Under the pieces are notes generated by a model. The model was given only the letters and a program-made list of their open reading frames with translations. It was not told the DNA's origin and ran no database searches. Positions 27,051 to 37,545 of a stretch of 64,000 bases of DNA are shown in pieces (position 1 is the first letter of the stretch; every line of letters starts with the position of its first letter). The stretch spans positions 1 through 64,000 of the forward strand of contig JAKLFY010000028.1 in assembly GCA_022710935.1 (NCBI GenBank), given 5' to 3'. The translations under genes were made by a program, and so were the position numbers. This DNA is from Verrucomicrobiota bacterium (lineage in GTDB: Bacteria > Verrucomicrobiota > Verrucomicrobiia > Limisphaerales > J093).

Positions 27051-30000
27051 ATGAATCCGATATCGGAATCCTCCTCGAACGGGGGCTGCGCGTGTTCAGG
27101 CGGCTGGCCGCGTCGCGACTTTCTGAAAGCCGTCGGCCTGGGAACGGCCGCGGCCGCGGTGCATCCGTGGCAAGCCATGGCCGGCCCGTTCACCAGGGCC
27201 GATTTCGAGAAACTGGTCCCGCGCAACAAGAAGCTGCGTCCGGAATGGGTAAAGTCGCTGTTCGACCGTGGCGAGCGGACCGTCTACCGGGGCTCGGACC
27301 TGGATCACATCGGGATGCCGATTGGCGGGCTATGCGCGGGCCAGGTGTACCTGAGCGGCGACGGACAGCTTCTGCACTGGGACATCTTCAACCAGCACAT
27401 TGGCACGGGGGCGGAGCATTACGCCAAACCGATGCCAATGACCCGGCCTTTCATGCAGGACTTTCACGTCCGCGTGACCTCGGGCACAACGAACCGGATC
27501 CGCCGCCTCGACCGCGAAGGCTGGCGCGACGTGTCGTTCAACGGGCAGTACCCCATCGGGCGCGTCGAGTATCGTGATCCGGACTGCCCGGTCAGTGTCG
27601 ACCTCGAGGCGTTCTCGCCGTTCATCCCGTTGAACACGGAGGATTCGTCGCTGCCGGCGACGGTGATGCGCTTCAGGGTGCGCAACACGAGCGACGGGGA
27701 GGTTACGGTGCAGGTCGGGGGGGTATTGCAGAATGCCATCTGCCTTCACAGCGCGAAGACCCGGCAGGGATTCCGCTGCAACCGTGTCGTCCGTGAGGGG
27801 AACGTATTGATTCTCGAAGCCTCAGCCGAGGATCTGCCCGCGGGGCCGTCCGCGGCGCGCCCCGACATCCGCTTCGACGATTTCGAGCTCGAGAGCTATG
27901 GCGCATGGCGGGCAGGCGGCGCGGCGTTCGGCAGCGGGCCGATCGAATTGGCGCGCATTCCGCAGTACCAGGGCGACGTGGGGGGACAGGGGCGCCGGGT
28001 GGTCAACAGCCACGCCTCGGCCCCGGGCGGGTCGGTCGAGGAAAAGGACCGGGCGCAGGGGACGCTCACGAGCGCGGTCTTCACCATCGAGCGGGATTAC
28101 ATCACGTTTCTGATCGGCGGGGGGGCGCATGCAGGCCGCACTTGCATAAACTTGCGGGTCGAGGGCGAACCGGTGCTGAGCGCGACCGGCGCCAACGACA
28201 ACCGGATGCGCCCGATGAGCTGGGACGTGCGCCGCTGGATGGGGAAGAAGGCGTCGATGGAGATCGTGGATGCGGAATCGGGCGGCTGGGGCAACGTGGG
28301 GATTGACGATATCGTGTTCAGCGATCGGCCGCGGGAACCGCTCGGCCCGTTGGCGACCGAGCCGGATTTCGGGACGATGTCCCTGGCGCTGCTCGAAGCG
28401 CAGCCTGACGACATCGGCCGAACAGACCTGACGGAGCTGACCGGCTTGTTCGATCCTGAAGCGAAGTCGGAAGCCCCGGCGCGCAAGCCCTTTGGCGACG
28501 ACCCGATTGGCGGTTTGATGCGCACAATCAAGCTGGCGCCCGAGCAGGAAGCCGCCGTGATCTTCCTGCTGACCTGGCACATGCCGAACCTCAAGATGGA
28601 TCGGCTGCCGCCGGGCCGGCATTACGCGACGCGGTTCGATTCTGCGGCGGTCGTGGCGCGGTACGTCGCGCGTCATTTCGGCCGGCTGAGTGGCGAAACG
28701 CGGCTGTGGCACGACACGTGGTACGACTCGACCCTGCCCTATTGGTTCCTCGATCGGACGTTTCTGAACACTTCGATTCTCGCCACCTCGACGTGCCATC
28801 GGCTCGGCAACGGTCGGTTCTGGGCCTGGGAAGGCGTCGGGTGTTGCCATGGCACGTGCGGCCACGTCTGGCAATACGCCCAGGCGATGGCGCGGCTGTT
28901 TCCCGATCTCGAGCGCATCACGCGCGAGGAGGTGGACTTCGGCCTCGCGCAGCAAAAGAACGGCGCGATTTATTTTCGCGGCGAGTTCAACAACATCCCG
29001 GCCATCGACGGTCAGGCCGGCACCATCCTGCGCGCACTGCGCGAGCACCAGATGTCGGCTGATGGCGCTTTTCTGAAGCGCAACTGGCCGCAGATCAGGC
29101 GGGCGACCGAGTGGTTGATCATGAAGGACGAGGACGGCGACGGACTGATCACGGGCAATCAGCACAACACCCTGGATACGGATTGGTACGGCCCGGTGGC
29201 ATGGCTCAGCGGCCTGTACCTTGCGGCGCTTGCCGCCTCGGAGACGATGGCGCGCGAGGTGGGCGATCAGGAGTTCGGCGACACGTGCCATGCGATCCTC
29301 GACGTCGGGCGGGCGAAGATTGTGCGCGAGCTCTTCGACGGCGACTACTTCATCAACAAGCCCGACCCCAAACACGCCGAGGCGATCAACTCCGGGAGCG
29401 GGTGTCACATCGACCAGGTCATGGGGCAAAGCTGGGCGTTTCAGGTGGGACTGCCGCGCATTGTACCCGAGACTGAAACGCGCGCGGCACTGAGGGCCCT
29501 GTGGCGTTACAACTTCACGCCGGACGTGGGACCGTATCGGGCGGCCTACAAGCCGGGCCGCTGGTACGCGATGCCCGGCGAGGCAGGGCTGTTGATGTGC
29601 ACATTCCCGCGGACGGACTGGGATTACGAGCAAGCGAAGGGGAGAGGGGCGGACTGGGCTGCGGGCTATTTCAACGAGTGCATGAACGGGTTCGAATACC
29701 AGGTCGCGGGTCACATGATCTGGGAAGGGATGGTCCAGGAGGGTTTGGCCGTCACGCGGGCGGTGCATGACCGCTACCATGCCTCCCGGCGCAATCCGTG
29801 GAACGAAGTCGAGTGCGGCGACCACTATGCCCGAAGCATGGCGAGCTACGGCGTGTTCCTTGCCGCCTGCGGCTTCACCTATCACGGCCCCCAGGGGCGC
29901 CTGGGCTTTGCGCCGCGCCTAACGCCGGGCGAATTCAGAGCGGCGTTCACGACCGCGGAAGGATGGGGATCCTTCGAGCAGAAGCAGACCCCGGGCAGAT

Positions 30001-30215
30001 TCGAGGCGGCAATTGACCTCAAGTGGGGAACGCTGCGATTGCGCGTCGTGAGGCTGCAACTGGCGGACGGAACCGCGCCGGGGGCGTTGAGGGTGAGAGC
30101 CGCCGGGCGCGATGTGCCTGCGGCCCTCGCGATGCGCGGAGAGCAGGCGGAGATCCGTTTCAGCGAGCTAGTCGAACTGAAAACGGGCGAGAGGCTCGTT
30201 CTAACGCTGGGCTGA
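27051..30215 (+). CDS. Tat-exported GH116 glycosidase (GBA2-like) with inserted beta-sandwich
   Basis: 1054 residues. WPRRDFLKAVGLGTAAAA is a twin-arginine signal, implying folded export. The mature N-terminal domain begins with GMPIGGLCAGQVYLSGDGQL, typical of GH116 (beta-glucosidase/glucosylceramidase type). The C-terminal alpha/alpha barrel includes DRTFLNTSIL, CCHGTCGHVWQYAQA, DEDGDGLITGNQHNTLDTDWYG (probable acid/base Asp) and GSGCHIDQVMGQSW. Between about 271 and 426 the N-terminal domain is interrupted by a module with FLIGGGAHAGRTCINLRV and GGWGNVGIDDIVFSD, resembling the beta-sandwich of GH32 levanases/CBM66. I could not place the nucleophile Glu without an alignment. Substrate unknown. 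Confidence 0.82.
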   Translation: MNPISESSSNGGCACSGGWPRRDFLKAVGLGTAAAAVHPWQAMAGPFTRADFEKLVPRNKKLRPEWVKSLFDRGERTVYRGSDLDHIGMPIGGLCAGQVYLSGDGQLLHWDIFNQHIGTGAEHYAKPMPMTRPFMQDFHVRVTSGTTNRIRRLDREGWRDVSFNGQYPIGRVEYRDPDCPVSVDLEAFSPFIPLNTEDSSLPATVMRFRVRNTSDGEVTVQVGGVLQNAICLHSAKTRQGFRCNRVVREGNVLILEASAEDLPAGPSAARPDIRFDDFELESYGAWRAGGAAFGSGPIELARIPQYQGDVGGQGRRVVNSHASAPGGSVEEKDRAQGTLTSAVFTIERDYITFLIGGGAHAGRTCINLRVEGEPVLSATGANDNRMRPMSWDVRRWMGKKASMEIVDAESGGWGNVGIDDIVFSDRPREPLGPLATEPDFGTMSLALLEAQPDDIGRTDLTELTGLFDPEAKSEAPARKPFGDDPIGGLMRTIKLAPEQEAAVIFLLTWHMPNLKMDRLPPGRHYATRFDSAAVVARYVARHFGRLSGETRLWHDTWYDSTLPYWFLDRTFLNTSILATSTCHRLGNGRFWAWEGVGCCHGTCGHVWQYAQAMARLFPDLERITREEVDFGLAQQKNGAIYFRGEFNNIPAIDGQAGTILRALREHQMSADGAFLKRNWPQIRRATEWLIMKDEDGDGLITGNQHNTLDTDWYGPVAWLSGLYLAALAASETMAREVGDQEFGDTCHAILDVGRAKIVRELFDGDYFINKPDPKHAEAINSGSGCHIDQVMGQSWAFQVGLPRIVPETETRAALRALWRYNFTPDVGPYRAAYKPGRWYAMPGEAGLLMCTFPRTDWDYEQAKGRGADWAAGYFNECMNGFEYQVAGHMIWEGMVQEGLAVTRAVHDRYHASRRNPWNEVECGDHYARSMASYGVFLAACGFTYHGPQGRLGFAPRLTPGEFRAAFTTAEGWGSFEQKQTPGRFEAAIDLKWGTLRLRVVRLQLADGTAPGALRVRAAGRDVPAALAMRGEQAEIRFSELVELKTGERLVLTLG

Positions 30216-30223
30216 CGCCGGAT

Positions 30224-31201
30224 TCACTGCGCGTACTCGGCGTAGCGCTCGGCCACTTTGGCCTCCTGCTCGTCGCCGCGGTGGAAGTAGAAGCGGTAGC
30301 GCCACGTGACGCTCTGGCCTGCCGCCACTTCGAGGTCACCGGTCCCGTCCGGCTTCTTCTCGAAGTCGTGGATCCCGAACGGATTCGCGGCGAACAGACC
30401 GTAGTCGCGCACGTGCCAGTGCGTGGGGTGGCGCGGATTCCGCGGATGATCGAAAATGGCGACACCGACGGTTTGGCCTTCGACGGGCCCATAGTAATCG
30501 ACCCACTTAGCGCGTTTCCCCCAGGTTGCCCCGTCGCGGAGCCCCTCGCTATTCACGATGCGCCCCTCGGCCGGCTTCCGGTTGCGAGTCAGACGCATTG
30601 CCTCGTTCAGGCGCAGGGCCATGGTCCCTTCCTTCGTGTCGCCGAACGTCAGCGGACCTTCGGAGGCATGAATCGTAATCTCGAAATCCACGATCCGATC
30701 GGCGGTGCGGTTGTGAATGCGAATCGTGCGTTCGTCTGTCGCGACGAGCGTGCCATCTTTGGCCACCAGCTTGTTGGCTGCACGGATCACGCCGAACTCC
30801 GGACCGGACTTCACCTCGAGGAACCTGTCATGGAGCGTCCTGCCGGCGTTGGCTCCTTCGGACCAGAAATCGTGACCGTTGACGGCGCCGTGGGCCCACC
30901 AGAACGAACGCTGGTGGGGGTGATCGCGCTCCTCGCCCTCGACTTCCTTCATCGGCCAGTTGCGCGTCATGGGCAGACCGGCCGGGCCGAGGACCGGGTA
31001 AAGGAAGGGACGGGAGAAGCCTCGGTAGTGATACTCGGAGAAGAGCTCTCCCCCGATTTCGATGCGGAGCTTGCCATCGAGATCGGCGATCCGCACTCCC
31101 GAGCTATCCGCGGCGTTTGTTGTGTTTGCGAAAAGGAGAATCACGCCCGCGATGCAGGCGAGGCCTCCAAGACGTCGAAAGGGCATGCTTAGACGGAGCA
31201 T
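30224..31201 (-). CDS. Exported PmoA-like (DUF6807) protein
   Basis: 325 residues from the ATG at 31201; the frame extends to 31252, but this start gives a signal peptide (MLRLSMPFRRLGGLACIAGV, cleavage near TNAA). The body is the all-beta fold annotated as PmoA-like/DUF6807, common in Planctomycetes and Verrucomicrobia: FSEYHYRGFSRPFLYPVLGP, DHPHQRSFWWAHGAVNG and VAIFDHPRNPRHPTHWHVRDYG. It is not a real methane monooxygenase subunit; the name is historical. The HPHQR and HPTHWH histidines look like a conserved active or binding site. It converges on the GH116 gene with only 8 nt between stops. Confidence 0.8.
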   Translation of the reverse strand: MLRLSMPFRRLGGLACIAGVILLFANTTNAADSSGVRIADLDGKLRIEIGGELFSEYHYRGFSRPFLYPVLGPAGLPMTRNWPMKEVEGEERDHPHQRSFWWAHGAVNGHDFWSEGANAGRTLHDRFLEVKSGPEFGVIRAANKLVAKDGTLVATDERTIRIHNRTADRIVDFEITIHASEGPLTFGDTKEGTMALRLNEAMRLTRNRKPAEGRIVNSEGLRDGATWGKRAKWVDYYGPVEGQTVGVAIFDHPRNPRHPTHWHVRDYGLFAANPFGIHDFEKKPDGTGDLEVAAGQSVTWRYRFYFHRGDEQEAKVAERYAEYAQ

Positions 31202-31314
31202 CGAGGCGAGCTTAGGAAGCGGAAGGGGATGGTCAACAAGAAAGCTCGACACACCGAAGCCTGGCGCGCATTCGCGCTTTGCGTCAACCGGCGGTCATGG
31301 TACCACTCACGCGC

Positions 31315-34300
31315 ATGCCCTGCCAACCTGCGACACGGGCGATGTGGGTGGGCACACCCCTGATGGGGGTCGCGCTCTGGCTGGCGATTGCTGCAATCAA
31401 GGTGCAGGCTGCCCCGGATTCGTACGGTCTGACCCGGTACACCGCCGAGCAGGGCCTGCCGGAAAACACCATTCGTGCGCTGCTCCAGACCCGCGACGGC
31501 TATCTGTGGATCGGCACGCTCGCAGGCCTGGCCCGGTTCGACGGCCTGCGGTTCAAGACGTATGACAGAAGCAACACCCCCGAAATGCTCAGTGACGCCA
31601 TCAACGCCCTGGCCGAAGACCGCCAGGACGGGAGTCTGTGGATCAACTCCGGCCGAGGCCTGCTGCGGTACCACGAGCACCGGTTCGAGCGCTTCGACAC
31701 CGAGGATGGATTCCCGCAGCCTTACGGTCCGATGTGGCCTGCGCGTCAGGGCGGCCTGTGGTACTCGCCCCATCCGGGACACCTGGTCCGGCTCGACACG
31801 CGCACCGTCCGGACCTGGGAGCTCCGTCCACGCCGGGTTTCTGGCGATGGGGACGAAATCGTAGGACACCGCATCACTCGTGTCCTCGAGGAGGAGGACG
31901 GCAGTGTGCTTGTCCTGATGCACATCGGTTTGTTCCGCTTTCTGCCGGAGACGGGCGTCTGTGAACGGCTGGGCCTTCGCGGAGCGACCGACACGAGTTG
32001 CCGTCATTTTTACAGGGAGCTCGACGGGACGGTTTACATGGCGGCTCGCGAGGGGCTGTGGCGGCTGGCGGGGAACGCGGGGGAGAGGATCGAAAGCGTT
32101 GCGCCGGACGACCCCCAATGCCCGGCGTTGCTCCACCCGTCGAGGGATGGCGGCTTCTGGGTCGCCTGGAGCGAAGACGGCCCGCCCCGGCTGGCTCGAT
32201 TCCACGATGGGGCGTCGGGTTTTCTCGACTTGTCGGCATTGCCTGATTACCCGCTGCTGTCGTTCTGCGAGGATGCCGAGGGGCATCTCTGGCTGGGGAC
32301 AACGTCCGGCCTCTGTCAGTTGCGGCGCAGGGCCGTCCGGGTCTATGCCCGCGAAGATGGTCTGCGAAACGACTTCGTGCGGGCTGTCACCGAGGGTCCG
32401 GATGGCACGATCTGGCTGGGGACGGTTCAGGGGGCCAGCGGGCTCCGAAATGGGCAGGCGACCAACCTGCCCCCGATCGAGCCACCATCGAACTGGGGAT
32501 GGGCCGAGGGACTCCTGGCCGACCGCCACGGGCGCGTCTGGTACGGAGCCATGAGAAACACAGTGGCCGTGCTCGATCGCGGCGCCTGGATCTCCGTCCC
32601 TTCCTTGAGCCTGGGCGAGAGCTGGGTGCGGACGCTTCGCGAGGATCGGTCGGGCCGGATCTGGGTCGGCTTTGACCGCGGCGTGCTCTGGCTGGACGAG
32701 GAGGGAGCGGTTCGGACGTTGCCCTGCGGGTTGTCTCATCCGGACGTGCGGGTGATTCATCAGGATCGACGGGGTGATGTGTGGTTTGGCACGAGCGGGG
32801 GCGGGCTGAATCGGCTGCGCGACGCCCAGGTCACCTCGTACACAACGGCACGGGGCGAGTACAACAATCGGGTATGGTGCATCCACGAGGACGCCGATGG
32901 CATCTTCTGGATCGCCACGCGCGACGGGCTGAATCGGTTTGTGCCACCGGAGGTTTCCCTGCCCACCCACTCCCCGTCGCAATGGGAGGACGAGGGGGGC
33001 GGGAGCCGCTTCTTCACCTTCACCAAGCAGCACGGTTTGTACGAGAACACGATCCAGAACGTGCAGGAAGACGACTTCGGATATCTCTGGCTAAGCGGGC
33101 TGCAGGGCATCTACCGGGTTGCGCGGCGGGACTTGAACGAGGTGGCGGCAGGGCGCCAGGGGCGCGTGCAGGTGCTCGCCTTTGGCGAAGCGGACGGAAT
33201 GCTTAACAGCCAGTGCACCGGCATGTTCAACCAGGCTTCCGGGTGCAAGGACCGGGAAGGCCGCATCTGGTTTCCGACAGCCCGCGGGGTGGCGATGATT
33301 GATCCGCGCGCGATCCGGCGCAACGAGGTGGCCCCGCTGGTGGTCATCGAGCAGGTGGTGGCGGACGACGAGGTCGTTTTTGGCGACGGCTGCCCATCGA
33401 GCGCCCAAGCCGTAAGCGACGGCGCCGACGCGCAGGCCCAGCGTTCGACGCTTCCCGGCGGCTCGGCACGCCCGACGTTCCAGACATCGCTTGGCGCCGG
33501 ACGGGGGCGAGTCATCGAGATGCGCTACACGGCGGCCAGCTTTGCGGCGCCGAAGCGGGTGCGCTTCAAGTACCGGCTCGAAGGCTCCGATCGCGACTGG
33601 CGTTACGACGAGGACAACCAGCGCGTGGCCTTCTACACCCGGCTTGGGCCGGGCGGGTATGCCTTCCGCGTCGCCGCCTGCAACAACCATGGCGTCTGGA
33701 GCGAGCAACCGGCCGTGTTCGCCTTCACCATCGCCCCGCATTTCTGGCAGACGTGGCTGTTCTATGTCCTGTGCGCCGCGGCTGTGATTGGACTGGCCGG
33801 GGCCATCCAGGCCTACCGTCTGCGCTGGCAGCGGCGCCTGCTCAACCTGGAACAGCAACAGACCCTGGCGGACGAGCGAACACGCATTGCGCGCGACCTG
33901 CATGACGATCTGGGCACAGCGCTGACCGGTCTGGCGCTGCAAATGGATGTGCTCAGTCGCGACGCGCACGGCACTCCGACGTGGGCGAACCGCCTCGCCG
34001 AGTCGGCGGCGGGCATCCGGACGCTGGCCGCACGGATGCGTGAAGTGGTATGGGCCGTCAACCCGCGCTGCGACACCGTGTCCAGCCTGGCCGCCTTCCT
34101 TGAACAGCAGGCGGGGCATTTCCTCAGGTCCGCTCCCCTGCGCTGCCGCCTCGATTTTCCCGACGCCGTGCCGCCGCTGCCCCTGGACGCGGAGACGCGG
34201 CACGCGCTGGCGCTGGCCGTGCGCGAGGCGCTGACGAATGTTGTCCGCCATGCGAATGCCAGCGAGGTTGTTTTGGGCCTCCGGGTCGAATCCGGCCGGC

Positions 34301-34494
34301 TCATTGTCCGGGTGGCGGACAACGGGCAGGGTTTCCTGGTTGCCGAACGCGTCGGCGCGGGCCAGGGTTTGGCGAACATGCGTTCGCGCCTCGAGAAGAT
34401 CAGGGGGGAATGCCGATGGCGGTCGACCCCCGGCGGTGGAACAAGCGTGGAAATGAACGTGCCGCTGCCGGACGGCGGTGGGTCGCAAAGCTGA
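31315..34494 (+). CDS. Propeller-type membrane sensor histidine kinase
   Basis: About 1059 residues from the ATG at 31315 (signal/anchor segment WVGTPLMGVALWLAIAAIKV). The exported sensor is a two-component regulator propeller with repeated blades such as GYLWIGTLAGLARFDG and GHLWLGTTSGLCQL, followed by a Y_Y_Y domain (VRFKYRLEGSDRDWRY). One transmembrane helix (FYVLCAAAVIGLAGAIQAY) leads into the HisKA_3 dimerisation domain with phospho-acceptor His863 in RIARDLHDDLGTALTG, then a HATPase domain (REALTNVVRHA, VADNGQGF, GQGLANMRSRL). It is a classical, not hybrid, kinase, paired with the LuxR-type regulator 5 nt downstream. Such sensors often respond to glycans, so the nearby hydrolases are candidate targets. 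Confidence 0.88.
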   Translation: MPCQPATRAMWVGTPLMGVALWLAIAAIKVQAAPDSYGLTRYTAEQGLPENTIRALLQTRDGYLWIGTLAGLARFDGLRFKTYDRSNTPEMLSDAINALAEDRQDGSLWINSGRGLLRYHEHRFERFDTEDGFPQPYGPMWPARQGGLWYSPHPGHLVRLDTRTVRTWELRPRRVSGDGDEIVGHRITRVLEEEDGSVLVLMHIGLFRFLPETGVCERLGLRGATDTSCRHFYRELDGTVYMAAREGLWRLAGNAGERIESVAPDDPQCPALLHPSRDGGFWVAWSEDGPPRLARFHDGASGFLDLSALPDYPLLSFCEDAEGHLWLGTTSGLCQLRRRAVRVYAREDGLRNDFVRAVTEGPDGTIWLGTVQGASGLRNGQATNLPPIEPPSNWGWAEGLLADRHGRVWYGAMRNTVAVLDRGAWISVPSLSLGESWVRTLREDRSGRIWVGFDRGVLWLDEEGAVRTLPCGLSHPDVRVIHQDRRGDVWFGTSGGGLNRLRDAQVTSYTTARGEYNNRVWCIHEDADGIFWIATRDGLNRFVPPEVSLPTHSPSQWEDEGGGSRFFTFTKQHGLYENTIQNVQEDDFGYLWLSGLQGIYRVARRDLNEVAAGRQGRVQVLAFGEADGMLNSQCTGMFNQASGCKDREGRIWFPTARGVAMIDPRAIRRNEVAPLVVIEQVVADDEVVFGDGCPSSAQAVSDGADAQAQRSTLPGGSARPTFQTSLGAGRGRVIEMRYTAASFAAPKRVRFKYRLEGSDRDWRYDEDNQRVAFYTRLGPGGYAFRVAACNNHGVWSEQPAVFAFTIAPHFWQTWLFYVLCAAAVIGLAGAIQAYRLRWQRRLLNLEQQQTLADERTRIARDLHDDLGTALTGLALQMDVLSRDAHGTPTWANRLAESAAGIRTLAARMREVVWAVNPRCDTVSSLAAFLEQQAGHFLRSAPLRCRLDFPDAVPPLPLDAETRHALALAVREALTNVVRHANASEVVLGLRVESGRLIVRVADNGQGFLVAERVGAGQGLANMRSRLEKIRGECRWRSTPGGGTSVEMNVPLPDGGGSQS

Positions 34495-34499
34495 CACCT

Positions 34500-35126
34500 A
34501 TGAGCATCCGTGTGGGGATTGTGGAGGACGACTCTGGACTGCGGGAGACTCTCGCACTCTTGATTGAGCGCGCGCAGGAGTTTTCCTGCGTGGCGTCGTG
34601 TGCGAGCGCCGAGGACGCCCTGCAGCAGCTCCCCGGTGCCGCTCCCGACGTTGTGCTGATGGACATTCACCTGCCCGGCGCATCCGGCATCGAGTGTGTC
34701 GCCCGGTTGCGGCGGCTCCTGCCGCACACGCAGGTCATCATGCTCACGATCGAGGAAGACATCGACCGGGTGTTCGAATCGCTGAAGGCCGGCGCCACCG
34801 GCTACCTGGTCAAACATGTCAGGCCGGAGGAGATCCTCGAAGCCGTGGCCGAGGTCCAGCGCGGGGGCGCGCCGATGTCCAGCGCCATTGCGCGCCGGGT
34901 GGTGACGGCCTTTCGCCAGCCGCCCTGCGAAGGCGGCGTCGACGAGGCGCTCACGACGCGCGAGGAGGACATACTCCGTTTGTTGGCCAAAGGCTGCCGA
35001 TCCAAGGAAGTCGCCGACCACCTGCAGATAGGGATCGGCACGGTGAATACGCACGTCCGCCACATCTACTGGAAACTACACGTCCGGTCCCGCGCGGAGG
35101 CGGTGGCGCGCTACATGGCGCGGTGA
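34500..35126 (+). CDS. NarL/FixJ-family response regulator
   Basis: 208 residues. The start at 34500 begins MSIRVGIVEDDSGLRETLAL; the open frame upstream of it lies inside the kinase gene. Receiver domain: acidic pocket Glu/Asp/Asp (VEDD), phospho-acceptor Asp55 in VVLMDIHLPG, a Thr in IMLTIEED, and Lys in YLVKHV. The C-terminal LuxR-type helix-turn-helix (LTTREEDILRLLAKGCRSKE, then IGTVNTHVRHIYWKL) spans about 145-205. It is the cognate regulator of the preceding kinase by adjacency. Its DNA targets are not known. Confidence 0.92.
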   Translation: MSIRVGIVEDDSGLRETLALLIERAQEFSCVASCASAEDALQQLPGAAPDVVLMDIHLPGASGIECVARLRRLLPHTQVIMLTIEEDIDRVFESLKAGATGYLVKHVRPEEILEAVAEVQRGGAPMSSAIARRVVTAFRQPPCEGGVDEALTTREEDILRLLAKGCRSKEVADHLQIGIGTVNTHVRHIYWKLHVRSRAEAVARYMAR

Positions 35127-35163
35127 TCGCTGCCACACTGCTTTCGCGTCGCGCGCCGCTCGT

Positions 35164-37491
35164 TCACTGGACCTTCGGGGGCGGAACAGCCCGGCCCTCG
35201 AACTGGGCAAGCTGCTCTTCTTTCGAATAGGTGCCGTAGAAAGGCACGTTGGCATCCAGCCAGAGATAGAGGCGGCGCCGATCCTCGTCTGGCAGCGCCG
35301 CCTTGGCGCGATGCGTCGGGTCCTCGAGAATGCGCGTCAGCGGGCTGGCGTCCGCCCCGATGCGGCCCGGAGGCGTCGAGGCCTCGGCGATCGAGGCGCC
35401 GCCCCACTCGAACCACCGCAAAAACGGCTTCAGGTTCTGGTAGGATCGCGTGAAGGGCGGCGCCGGGTCGCCCGTGAGAATCAGCGCGCTTGCGTCGGCG
35501 CCGGTCGACCCGTCGTGGCAGCGGACGCAATGCCGGTCCAGGACGGGTTGCACCAGCCGCGGATAGCTCAACGGGCGACTGCCGTCAGGACCGGGCTCGA
35601 GGTGTGAAGGCGCGCGTTTCGAGGCCAGGGTCGGACGCGTGGTCGGCGTGTTGCGCTGCGGCTCGTGGCAACCCACGCAGCCCCGGCGTTCTCCCGGCTG
35701 GAGGTAGGTCGCACTGCGCATGCTCTGGATGGCGCGACCGGCGGCGTCGACGGCCTGAAAGTACAGCGGCTTGCGGGCCGGGGCGCGGAAATAGGCCGAT
35801 CCGTCCGACTCCACCGGCACGGTCCCCAGGAGCAGGCGGGCGCTCTCGGCATTTGCATGGCCGATGCGGGGTTGATTGGCGACGTGCGTGTGCGTCTTGG
35901 GGAGGACTTGAAAGACCCGGAGTTGACGGACCGGACGGTCGGCAGGCATCGGGCGGAGGCTCAGGCGGACATCGGTGAGGAGGAATTCGCCCTCGTCGCC
36001 CAACGTCGGATCGAGCGTGCTCGCAAAGGCTGGGGGCGCCGGCCGCGGAGCCAGGGGGATCGGGTACATCGAGGACGCCTCCGGATCGCGATAGAGGAGT
36101 TCGAGGTTCCCCGCGCGATCCAAGTAATAGAGCCCGGTGCGCGTGTCGCGCGATTCGCCCGAACTCATGCCGGGCAGCGGTTCATGGCTGAATGCGACCA
36201 GAAACCAATCTTTCGACAAGGGCCAGGGGCTGTGGAAATAGCTCTTCGGCCATCCCGCCGCCTCGGCGAAACAGACCTCCGGCGTGAGGACTTCGATGTC
36301 CTCGAGCCGGTCTTCGCCCGTCTCCGGATCGAGCGCGGCGCGCTGCGGATCGACAATCACCAGCGAGCCGCCCACGTCGGCATGATGGGCGCCCGCCACG
36401 AAGACAATGCGCTGGGAGCCCGGGATGGCGCGGGGCTGAAAGCACGCGTTGATCCGCGTCGTGTAGTTACCGAACAACGACACCGGGTTCGAGCCGTCGG
36501 GATTGCTGGCCCAGAGGCCATGAAAATTCGCTGCCGAGCGATCGACGTAATCCCAGCGCGTGTACACGATCCGGCCGTCGTGAAGGACAAACGGATGCCA
36601 TTCGTTGGTCTCATGCCACGAGAGCGTTCTCACATCCGATCCGTCCGGGTTCATCCGGTGAAGCGTGTAGGCCGGAAGCGGTTCCCACACACCGTGGCAC
36701 CGGCCAAAGCCGCCGCGCCGGGTCGACATGAACGCCAGGGCGCCATCAGGCAGCGGACAAGGATCGAAGTCGTCGTTGGAACCGTCCGTCAACCGGCGCA
36801 AGCCGGAGCCATCGACCTCGATCGCGTACAACTGGAAACAACGCCGATCAGTCGAGTAGAAGTCGGGCTTACGCGGCGCGCGCTCGGCAAACGCGAAGTA
36901 GAGCGTGCGCGCGTCATAGCCGAGCGCCAGCGTGGTGTAATTGCCTCGGGGCAGCCGACCCGCAACCAGGTCGCGCACCTCGAACGAGACCCCGGGCCGT
37001 TCGAGCACGAAGACGCCGCCACCGGCCACGTCGCCGTAGTCGTAGAAGTACCCGAGGTATTCGTGCAGCATCTGGCAGACAAACCGATGCCGCTTCATGA
37101 ACGCGATCGGCTGCCCTGCAACGGCCGGGTTCCGCAGCGCGAGGTCGCGTCCGCTCCACCGCACTCGATTGTACAAGGCGAGCCGATCAGCAGACGGCAG
37201 CCGTCCGGACGCTCCCGCCTCGGTCCGCAGCGACTCCCAGGCGCGCCTTTCGATGTCCAACTCCGCGGATGGGAGTGCCGACGCCAGAATGTTCAACAGG
37301 CTTTGCCCCCGCGCCACCGCGGCTTCGAGGGCCTCGATGCTCCCGGGCTCGCGGCCCAAACGGCGTTCCTGAGACGCCCAATCCGCCTCGACCGTCGACT
37401 TGAGCTCAGGCTCGACCGGGCCTGGGCGCGCCGGGATGCCGGAGGCCGAGACCCAGAGCGCACAGGCCAAGAAGAGGTGGAACCTGGTCAT
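35164..37491 (-). CDS. Secreted HzsA-related propeller/cytochrome-like protein with two CXXCH motifs
   Basis: 775 residues from the start at 37491, giving a signal peptide (MTRFHLFLACALWVSASG). The central region is a TolB/WD40-like beta-propeller of the type named after hydrazine synthase alpha subunit middle domain (DPCPLPDGALAFMSTRRGG, ASNPDGSNPVSLFGNY, NACFQPRAIPGSQRIVFVAG). Toward the C-terminus two haem-c motifs appear, GCVGCHEPQ (encoded at 35665-35679) and HCVRCHDGS (35515-35529). Families of this kind are widespread in PVC bacteria that have no anammox, so hydrazine chemistry is unlikely. An exported redox or binding role is inferred. It stands alone. Confidence 0.75.
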   Translation of the reverse strand: MTRFHLFLACALWVSASGIPARPGPVEPELKSTVEADWASQERRLGREPGSIEALEAAVARGQSLLNILASALPSAELDIERRAWESLRTEAGASGRLPSADRLALYNRVRWSGRDLALRNPAVAGQPIAFMKRHRFVCQMLHEYLGYFYDYGDVAGGGVFVLERPGVSFEVRDLVAGRLPRGNYTTLALGYDARTLYFAFAERAPRKPDFYSTDRRCFQLYAIEVDGSGLRRLTDGSNDDFDPCPLPDGALAFMSTRRGGFGRCHGVWEPLPAYTLHRMNPDGSDVRTLSWHETNEWHPFVLHDGRIVYTRWDYVDRSAANFHGLWASNPDGSNPVSLFGNYTTRINACFQPRAIPGSQRIVFVAGAHHADVGGSLVIVDPQRAALDPETGEDRLEDIEVLTPEVCFAEAAGWPKSYFHSPWPLSKDWFLVAFSHEPLPGMSSGESRDTRTGLYYLDRAGNLELLYRDPEASSMYPIPLAPRPAPPAFASTLDPTLGDEGEFLLTDVRLSLRPMPADRPVRQLRVFQVLPKTHTHVANQPRIGHANAESARLLLGTVPVESDGSAYFRAPARKPLYFQAVDAAGRAIQSMRSATYLQPGERRGCVGCHEPQRNTPTTRPTLASKRAPSHLEPGPDGSRPLSYPRLVQPVLDRHCVRCHDGSTGADASALILTGDPAPPFTRSYQNLKPFLRWFEWGGASIAEASTPPGRIGADASPLTRILEDPTHRAKAALPDEDRRRLYLWLDANVPFYGTYSKEEQLAQFEGRAVPPPKVQ

Positions 37492-37545
37492 CAAGCATGA
37501 TAAGCCCAAACATTCAATCATGCGCAGCCGTGTACAACGTCCGGG

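Follow-up and report, generated by a model that had tools for sequence, protein, structure and literature searches.

The best-known members of glycoside hydrolase family 116 (GH116) are beta-glucosidases and glucosylceramidases (PMC10509167). A member of GH116 subfamily 4 is ExoMA2 from Microbacterium, an exo-beta-D-arabinofuranosidase with structures 8ic6 and 8ic7. Its catalytic residues are Glu431 and Asp557, while His446 and Arg483 are the stated difference from beta-glucosidase (PMC10509167). ExoMA2 and the GH172 enzyme ExoMA1 are the two exo-enzymes of the Microbacterium D-arabinan cluster (PMC10509167), and GH172 enzymes act on alpha-D-arabinofuranosides (PMC10115798). Here we describe a GH116 protein which is probably of the ExoMA2 type and which contains, within its N-terminal domain, a module resembling carbohydrate-binding modules (CBMs). 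It is encoded on a stretch of 64,000 nt from a Verrucomicrobiota bacterium (assembly GCA_022710935.1, contig JAKLFY010000028.1, positions 1 to 64,000), which is called the window in the following.

On balance, and with some reserve, we favour the reading that this protein is an exported exo-beta-D-furanosidase with a nested CBM-type module that would hold the enzyme on a furanoside-containing glycan. The twin-arginine translocation (Tat) system would export the enzyme from the cytoplasm. The nested module may capture a furanoside-containing polysaccharide or oligosaccharide, keeping the enzyme on its substrate, and the catalytic barrel would release terminal beta-D-arabinofuranose, or a related D-furanose, from chain ends. 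A retaining mechanism would be used, with Glu594 as nucleophile and Asp709 as acid/base. The features of the protein are as follows, with the basis of each assignment in brackets.

27051..30215, + strand: GH116 protein, 1054 aa, complete frame with stop (open reading frame; Pfam; full-length model)
27051..27185, + strand: Tat signal region, residues 1-45, twin arginine at 21-22 in RRDFLK (TIGR01409, Pfam TAT_signal)
27273..27830, + strand: GH116 N-terminal beta-sandwich, part 1, residues 75-260 (GH116N match; model strands to 252-260)
27858..28331, + strand: inserted CBM-like jelly-roll module, about 158 residues, 270-427 (own-genome profile match; isolated model; fold matches)
28107..28124, + strand: FLIGGG motif of the module, residues 353-358 (sequence; its three glycines fall into columns that are invariant or almost so across 124 modules)
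28281..28292, + strand: GGWG motif of the module, residues 411-414 (sequence; W and the last G are each kept in at least 90% of 124 modules)
28359..28583, + strand: GH116 N-terminal beta-sandwich, part 2, residues 437-511 (strands 442-510 in the full-length model)
28620..29870, + strand: GH116 (alpha/alpha)6 catalytic barrel, residues 524-940 (DUF608; model helices; ExoMA2 structure 8ic6 aligned over 75-1054)
28830..28832, + strand: Glu594, equivalent of the ExoMA2 nucleophile Glu431 (alignment with 8ic6; PMC10509167)
28863..28865, + strand: His605, equivalent of ExoMA2 His446, arabinofuranose recognition (alignment; PMC10509167)
28977..28979, + strand: Arg643, equivalent of ExoMA2 Arg483, arabinofuranose recognition (alignment; PMC10509167)
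29175..29177, + strand: Asp709, equivalent of the ExoMA2 acid/base Asp557 (alignment; PMC10509167)
29877..30212, + strand: small C-terminal beta domain, residues 943-1054 (model strands; the ExoMA2 alignment extends to residue 1054)

Two Pfam families identify the protein as GH116. GH116N is matched with an E-value of 1.6e-37 (130.2 bits, cut-off 30.2; best stretch residues 88-249) and DUF608, which represents the GH116 catalytic region, with 5.9e-37 (128.2 bits, cut-off 26.3; best stretch residues 653-933). No further Pfam domain was found between these two stretches of the window protein. A model of the full-length protein reached a predicted local distance difference test score (pLDDT) of 91.8 and a predicted TM score (pTM) of 0.89. 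Compared with known structures, it matches ExoMA2 (8ic6) over 743 residues with a Z-score of 43.2, a root mean square deviation of 2.2 and 32% sequence identity, while the match to the beta-glucosidase TxGH116 has a Z-score of 34.5 and 20% identity.

The alignment with 8ic6 supplies both residue sets. The Glu nucleophile and Asp acid/base that characterize GH116 are Glu594 and Asp709, and the His and Arg that characterize subfamily 4 are His605 and Arg643. TxGH116 from Thermoanaerobacterium shares the fold, the nucleophile and the acid/base with the window protein (PMC10509167), but has Asp and His where the window protein has His605 and Arg643, at an overall identity of about 20%. All four diagnostic residues of ExoMA2 were retained in each of 86 module-bearing rows of our alignment. 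Among 40 module-free rows, which include ExoMA2 itself, Glu was found in all 40 while His, Arg and Asp were found in 39 each, with L224 as the one exception. In two subfamily-1-like rows, D occupies the position of His446 and A or S that of Arg483. Judged by sequence and model, the enzyme is thus predicted to be probably of the ExoMA2 type (subfamily 4), removing beta-linked D-arabinofuranose or a close D-furanose.

ExoMA2 resembles the window protein in its GH116 body, in the small C-terminal sandwich and in the Glu/His/Arg/Asp set. A module of this kind was not found in ExoMA2, where the phmmer match leaves out residues 228-492 of the window protein. A further difference is that ExoMA2 is reported to have no signal sequence and to act intracellularly (PMC10509167). 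The window protein, as the sequence-only reading had stated, starts with a Tat signal. The NCBIfam model TIGR01409 matches with 18.3 bits, which is above its curated cut-off of 16.7; Pfam TAT_signal gives 18.6 bits, which is under its cut-off of 22.7. That reading had considered a Tat signal on such an enzyme unusual, a view which the relatives do not bear out. A twin-arginine motif occurs in 64 of 88 module-bearing frames, against an expectation of 4.0 from shuffled sequences, and in 13 of 43 module-free frames, against 1.2; these frames run from stop to stop and may contain non-coding bases. It seems from these motifs that Tat export is usual among the module-bearing GH116 proteins.

A separate beta-sandwich interrupting the GH116 N-terminal domain had been proposed from the sequence, and this holds in the full-length model, where the module lies between the N-domain strands 252-260 and 442-448. 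When the module was modelled alone with AlphaFold2 on a 124-module alignment (156 modules thinned to 125, of which 124 could be aligned), a pLDDT of 97.6 and a pTM of 0.92 were obtained. The possibility that the stretch is an integral part of the GH116 fold, which the sequence-only reading had named as refuting its proposal, was rejected on the basis of the isolated model, the full-length model and module-free relatives. When module-bearing proteins are paired with module-free relatives (e.g. L180 with L233, or the first with the second gene of L164), the stretch is missing from the matching part of the N-terminal domain of the latter, with 9 to 29 residues remaining scattered over the module stretch in the pairwise alignments. 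The module is predicted with high confidence to be an independently folding jelly roll of the kind found in carbohydrate-binding modules. By prediction only, it is an independent CBM-type domain attached to a carbohydrate-active enzyme, as is generally expected of a CBM.

In the structural comparison, seven of the top ten rows have CBM in their title, as do 13 of the 50 listed. The module matches a porphyran CBM (Z-score 12.3), CBM61 (11.3), CBM16 (10.9) and CBM11 (9.8), and also a domain of the endo-D-arabinanase EndoMA1 (10.2). The latter held an arabino-oligosaccharide in the crystal, and its authors call it a putative CBM only (PMC10509167). All five share the jelly-roll arrangement with the module over 123-137 residues (Z-scores from 9.7 to 12.3), but their sequence identity is just 6-15% and none of them is among the profile matches with E-values up to 10. 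CBM66, from SacC of Bacillus subtilis, is a beta-sandwich accessory domain of a levan-degrading enzyme and in this respect comparable; it is C-terminal in SacC (PMC6560043), whereas the module is nested in an N-terminal domain here.

The limits of the module had been placed at 27865-28330 from the sequence alone, which is nearly exact, as the profile places them at about 27858-28331. The two motifs named with them are also present, FLIGGG at 28107-28124 and the longer form GGWGNVGIDDI at 28281-28313. A module profile applied to the own genome, a 7.5-Mb draft assembly, matched 27855-28337 with an E-value of 1.4e-67. Two more copies in this genome match the window module with E-values of about 7e-33. 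One of these (48% identity) is in a second GH116 protein on contig C101, and the other (47% identity) is near the N-terminus of P0002, a GH32 protein on contig C113. A third GH116 protein of this genome, on contig C255, was module-free in the profile search. Copies in other genomes reach 70% identity to the window module. Because of these matches within the own genome and in others, the module stretch is not taken as a chance resemblance. An assembly chimera was ruled out as well, since the identical order occurs on many contigs of other genomes. GH116 relatives without the module also exist.

The module was further described as levanase-type by the sequence-only reading. One part of this description is supported, namely by the copy in P0002, which belongs to another catalytic family than the window protein and carries the module at its N-terminus. 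The module is not, however, the GH32 C-terminal sandwich. In P0002 it is followed by DUF4980 (residues 205-271), GH32N and GH32C as separate domains, and the comparison with the GH32 C-terminal domain (PF08244) gave no match: neither this family nor DUF4980 (PF16352) is among the 16 Pfam families matched by any of the 124 modules at E-values up to 1. CBM35 (PF16990) was considered too; the window module does not match it, and seven of the 124 relatives do so weakly (best E-value 0.00065). No Pfam family matches the module stretch, whether within the whole protein or searched alone, and no NCBIfam model lies over it.

PDB sequences did not yield a relative. The single window module retrieved an antibody chain only (E-value 1.3). 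With the 124-module profile, three chains had E-values of 0.014-0.026. Profile matches to bean amylase-inhibitor chains and a phage protein (0.014-0.054) were taken as chance. No chain named levanase or CBM66 was retrieved up to an E-value of 10, the presence of CBM66 in that set being unchecked. CBM66 does not occur in the 50 listed rows of the structural comparison either, which excludes nothing. Judged by titles and abstract openings in the literature on GH116, GH172, CBM66, levan and GH32, no paper describing the module was found.

To what extent the module is specific for GH116 can be read from the loci collected. They comprise 147 module-bearing frames, of which 144 are distinct by module sequence (87 GH116, 31 GH32 and 26 others). 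The search was seeded with two GH116 modules and one GH32 module, so that the share of these two families is biased upward, and some GH116 frames were hand-picked. One module search contributed the best 80 of 159 confirmed matches. The phylum search scored at most 10 candidates per genome and contributed 60 collected regions, roughly half of its matches, mostly weaker ones, being left out. The module was found in some protein of 69 of 387 genomes, and a DUF608 match in 62 of 194 genomes sampled from the phylum. At least 13 of 88 listed DUF608 places have the module nearby on the same contig, as judged by comparing the two sets of matches by eye. The module-bearing GH116 proteins come from Verrucomicrobiota, Planctomycetota, Armatimonadota and Actinomycetota. 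The combination of GH116 and the module had been thought unusual; with 87 distinct GH116 proteins among the collected loci, it is a conserved architecture and not an oddity of one genome.

Eighteen of the 26 other hosts were scanned with Pfam. They include three GH81 proteins, two GH172 proteins and one sulfatase. The rest are DUF1549/DUF1553 and other PSCyt1 cytochrome proteins, two HZS_alpha-like proteins, three DUF7133/HEAT cytochrome proteins, one Mala_s_1-like protein and two cut-off GH116 proteins. A further module-bearing GH172 protein is L142. It may be added that an HZS_alpha-like protein is also encoded in the window (35167-37521, - strand), and that the two module-bearing proteins with this Pfam domain are L146 and L155.

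The full-length alignment comprises the window protein, 70 others of 75 selected proteins and P0004. For the tree, frames with fewer than 400 aligned catalytic residues (except the two subfamily-1-like rows) and exact duplicates were removed, which left 128 rows, and thinning at 75% identity led to 93. In a quick tree of these 93 catalytic domains, during which the program warned of long branches meeting, the window protein falls into a clade of 56 rows with a support of 100 in the Shimodaira-Hasegawa-like approximate likelihood ratio test (SH-aLRT). The module is present in 51 of the 56 rows, which represent Verrucomicrobiota, Planctomycetota, Armatimonadota, Actinomycetota and one archaeal bin. 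The archaeal locus (L091, Methanoregulaceae) may be a binning error. ExoMA2 forms a long branch in the neighbouring clade of 27 rows (SH-aLRT 95), which this quick tree, calculated with no mixture model, places as sister to the clade of the window (node support 84). Over the whole tree, presence and absence of the module change seven times, compared to a mean of 28.8 after shuffling. Because of this low number of changes and the 51 module-bearing rows, the insert is probably old in the clade of the window, with a few losses. Elsewhere in the family, the distribution suggests that there were probably either repeated gains of the module or losses in several branches.

The module also occurs in repeated, nested and permuted forms. 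GH116 proteins from Jiangella (L069, L072, L075, L077) have two modules in tandem and those from Kribbella (L083, L088) have three. In L074 and L086 the module interrupts the GH32 region itself, as delimited with a profile built from one GH32 protein. A second insertion site, which lies after GH116N and before the catalytic barrel, is used in three GH116 proteins. Here the module starts at the 'AFG' segment (at aa 316 in L165, aa 332 in L179 and aa 343 in L209), and the first strand (FEGxDYxGW) is placed after the last one, so that by sequence the module looks like a circularly permuted copy. In the GH116 paralogue of the own genome on contig C101 (L010, 2312-6082, - strand), the module lies inside a region of about 250 residues with a weak match to DUF4350 (E-value 0.12). 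This is a domain within a domain within GH116N, and the frames L079, L084 and L089 are laid out similarly. Three module-free GH116 proteins (L216, L217, L219) have about 250 extra N-terminal residues, which on inspection by eye resemble LamG.

GH172 genes were found around five of 89 module-GH116 loci; the 89 include two pairs in which both loci represent the same contig under different names. At four of the five (L024, L081, L143, L179) the GH172 gene directly adjoins the GH116 gene on the same strand, while at L084 it is on the opposite strand. A further pair of GH116 and GH172 genes occurs at G101:C20. Module-bearing GH32 proteins are encoded near module-GH116 in L053 and L055, and L171 pairs a module-bearing GH32 with GH172. 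Relative to the genome-wide density of GH172, the chance of five or more such neighbours is 5.5e-8 by a rough estimate (with genomes assumed to average 4 Mb, and with 538 kb of flanking DNA); it is 0.0019 if the high density in the own genome is taken as reference. Given the Microbacterium cluster, these neighbours connect a small number of clade members with glycans of D-furanose. The own genome has twelve GH172 (DUF2961) matches and five GH32N matches. On its contig C186 (about 30267-35846), a sub-threshold match to DUF4185, an endo-D-arabinanase family, is found about 4 kb from a GH172 gene. Taken together, the GH172 matches and this sub-threshold match hint at a use of D-furanose glycans. 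A D-arabinan locus is not established in this genome, as DUF4185 stays sub-threshold despite the twelve GH172 matches.

Several observations weigh against the favoured reading. The support from gene neighbourhood is limited: when the 55 loci where other proteins carry the module serve as a local control, one of them (L171) has a module-free GH172, and a frequency of 5 in 89 does not differ significantly from 1 in 55 (Fisher p 0.41). There is no GH172 in the surrounding DNA examined for 84 of the 89 loci, no GH172, GH32 or second GH116 frame in the window, and no DUF4185 match over cut-off in the own genome. Hosts such as the DUF1549/DUF1553, HZS_alpha-like and DUF7133/HEAT proteins have no known glycan activity, and the occurrence of the module in GH81 indicates that it is not tied to furanosides. 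GH81 is a glucanase family. The fold itself is not decisive, as the jelly roll is common to domains other than sugar binders. MAM, reelin, gingipain adhesin and toxin domains are tied with the CBMs at Z-scores near 10-11, where most differences are ties, and the top match in Foldseek is the MAM domain of neuropilin. Finally, for the Bacteroides endo-levanase BT1760 it was concluded that its C-terminal sandwich is no CBM (PMC6560043), and caution is therefore required with CBM-like folds.

The last point leads to the most serious competitor, in which the module does not bind sugar but is a structural or oligomerisation domain that lends stability to the N-terminal sandwich, adds to a dimer interface or gives the active-site entrance its shape. 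The module is inserted and not placed at a flexible terminus, it is kept in most rows of the clade, ExoMA2 is a dimer (PMC10509167), and in a GH32 enzyme the role assigned to a CBM-like sandwich was one in folding and stability (PMC6560043). A part shaped for one enzyme would, however, not be expected to recur in tandem and at different positions of proteins unrelated to it; five rows of that clade have no module, and the catalytic residues are kept in module-free rows too. We consider this explanation unlikely. The MAM and gingipain matches, with MAM first in Foldseek, could also point to a cell-surface adhesion domain which fixes many exported proteins of planctomycetes and Verrucomicrobiota to the envelope or to a protein rather than to a substrate. 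The large cytochrome-type hosts would be in line with this, but 118 of the 144 distinct frames are GH116 or GH32, even if the set is biased by its seeds, and we give this idea a small chance at best. Glycan binding remains the most likely role of the module, which we regard as a putative CBM.

A different objection concerns the enzyme, which might be a beta-glucosidase or similar pyranosidase, as beta-glucosidases and glucosylceramidases make up most of the GH116 enzymes that have been characterised (PMC10509167) and the tree does not directly join the clade of the window with ExoMA2. This appears quite improbable to us, given that His605 and Arg643 match the arabinofuranosidase and not TxGH116, that ExoMA2 is much the better structural match and that GH172 adjoins some relatives. 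The ligand of the module had been suggested to be a fructan or another glycan. A fructan is possible, while the enzyme itself points to beta-D-arabinofuranosides or related D-furanosides.

An unnamed CBM-like family, its presence in three GH families that include known furanosidases, and the nested and permuted arrangements in which it occurs all appear to be new as judged by Pfam, NCBIfam and the literature titles and abstract openings. As a tentative and in our opinion doubtful extension, the module might found an undescribed family of D-furanoside binders common to GH32 (beta-D-fructofuranosides), GH116 subfamily 4 (beta-D-arabinofuranosides) and GH172 (alpha-D-furanosides). It would be unusually insertable, considering two sites in GH116, the insertion inside GH32, the tandem repeats and the circular permutation in one lineage. 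In that case, D-arabinan- or fructan-like glycans would be processed by an exported pathway of Verrucomicrobiota and Planctomycetota which has so far escaped recognition.

An attack on D-furanose glycans has been described in, among others, Microbacterium and Dysgonomonas (PMC10509167, PMC10115798). That environmental members of Verrucomicrobiota and Planctomycetota do this as well is suggested by the arabinofuranosidase-type residues of a widespread clade which appears to be exported. With its clear set of host enzymes, the module is a candidate new CBM family, and the ways in which it is nested, repeated in tandem or permuted may be seen as an experiment of nature on the building of such modules into enzymes.

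No operon partner of the window gene was seen among the five neighbours scanned. Near neighbours code for a DUF6807 protein, a sensor kinase with response regulator, and the HZS_alpha-like protein. The sensor kinase (Reg_prop, Y_Y_Y) and the adjoining LuxR-type response regulator (31279-35123, + strand) are located beside DUF6807 and may regulate sugar genes.

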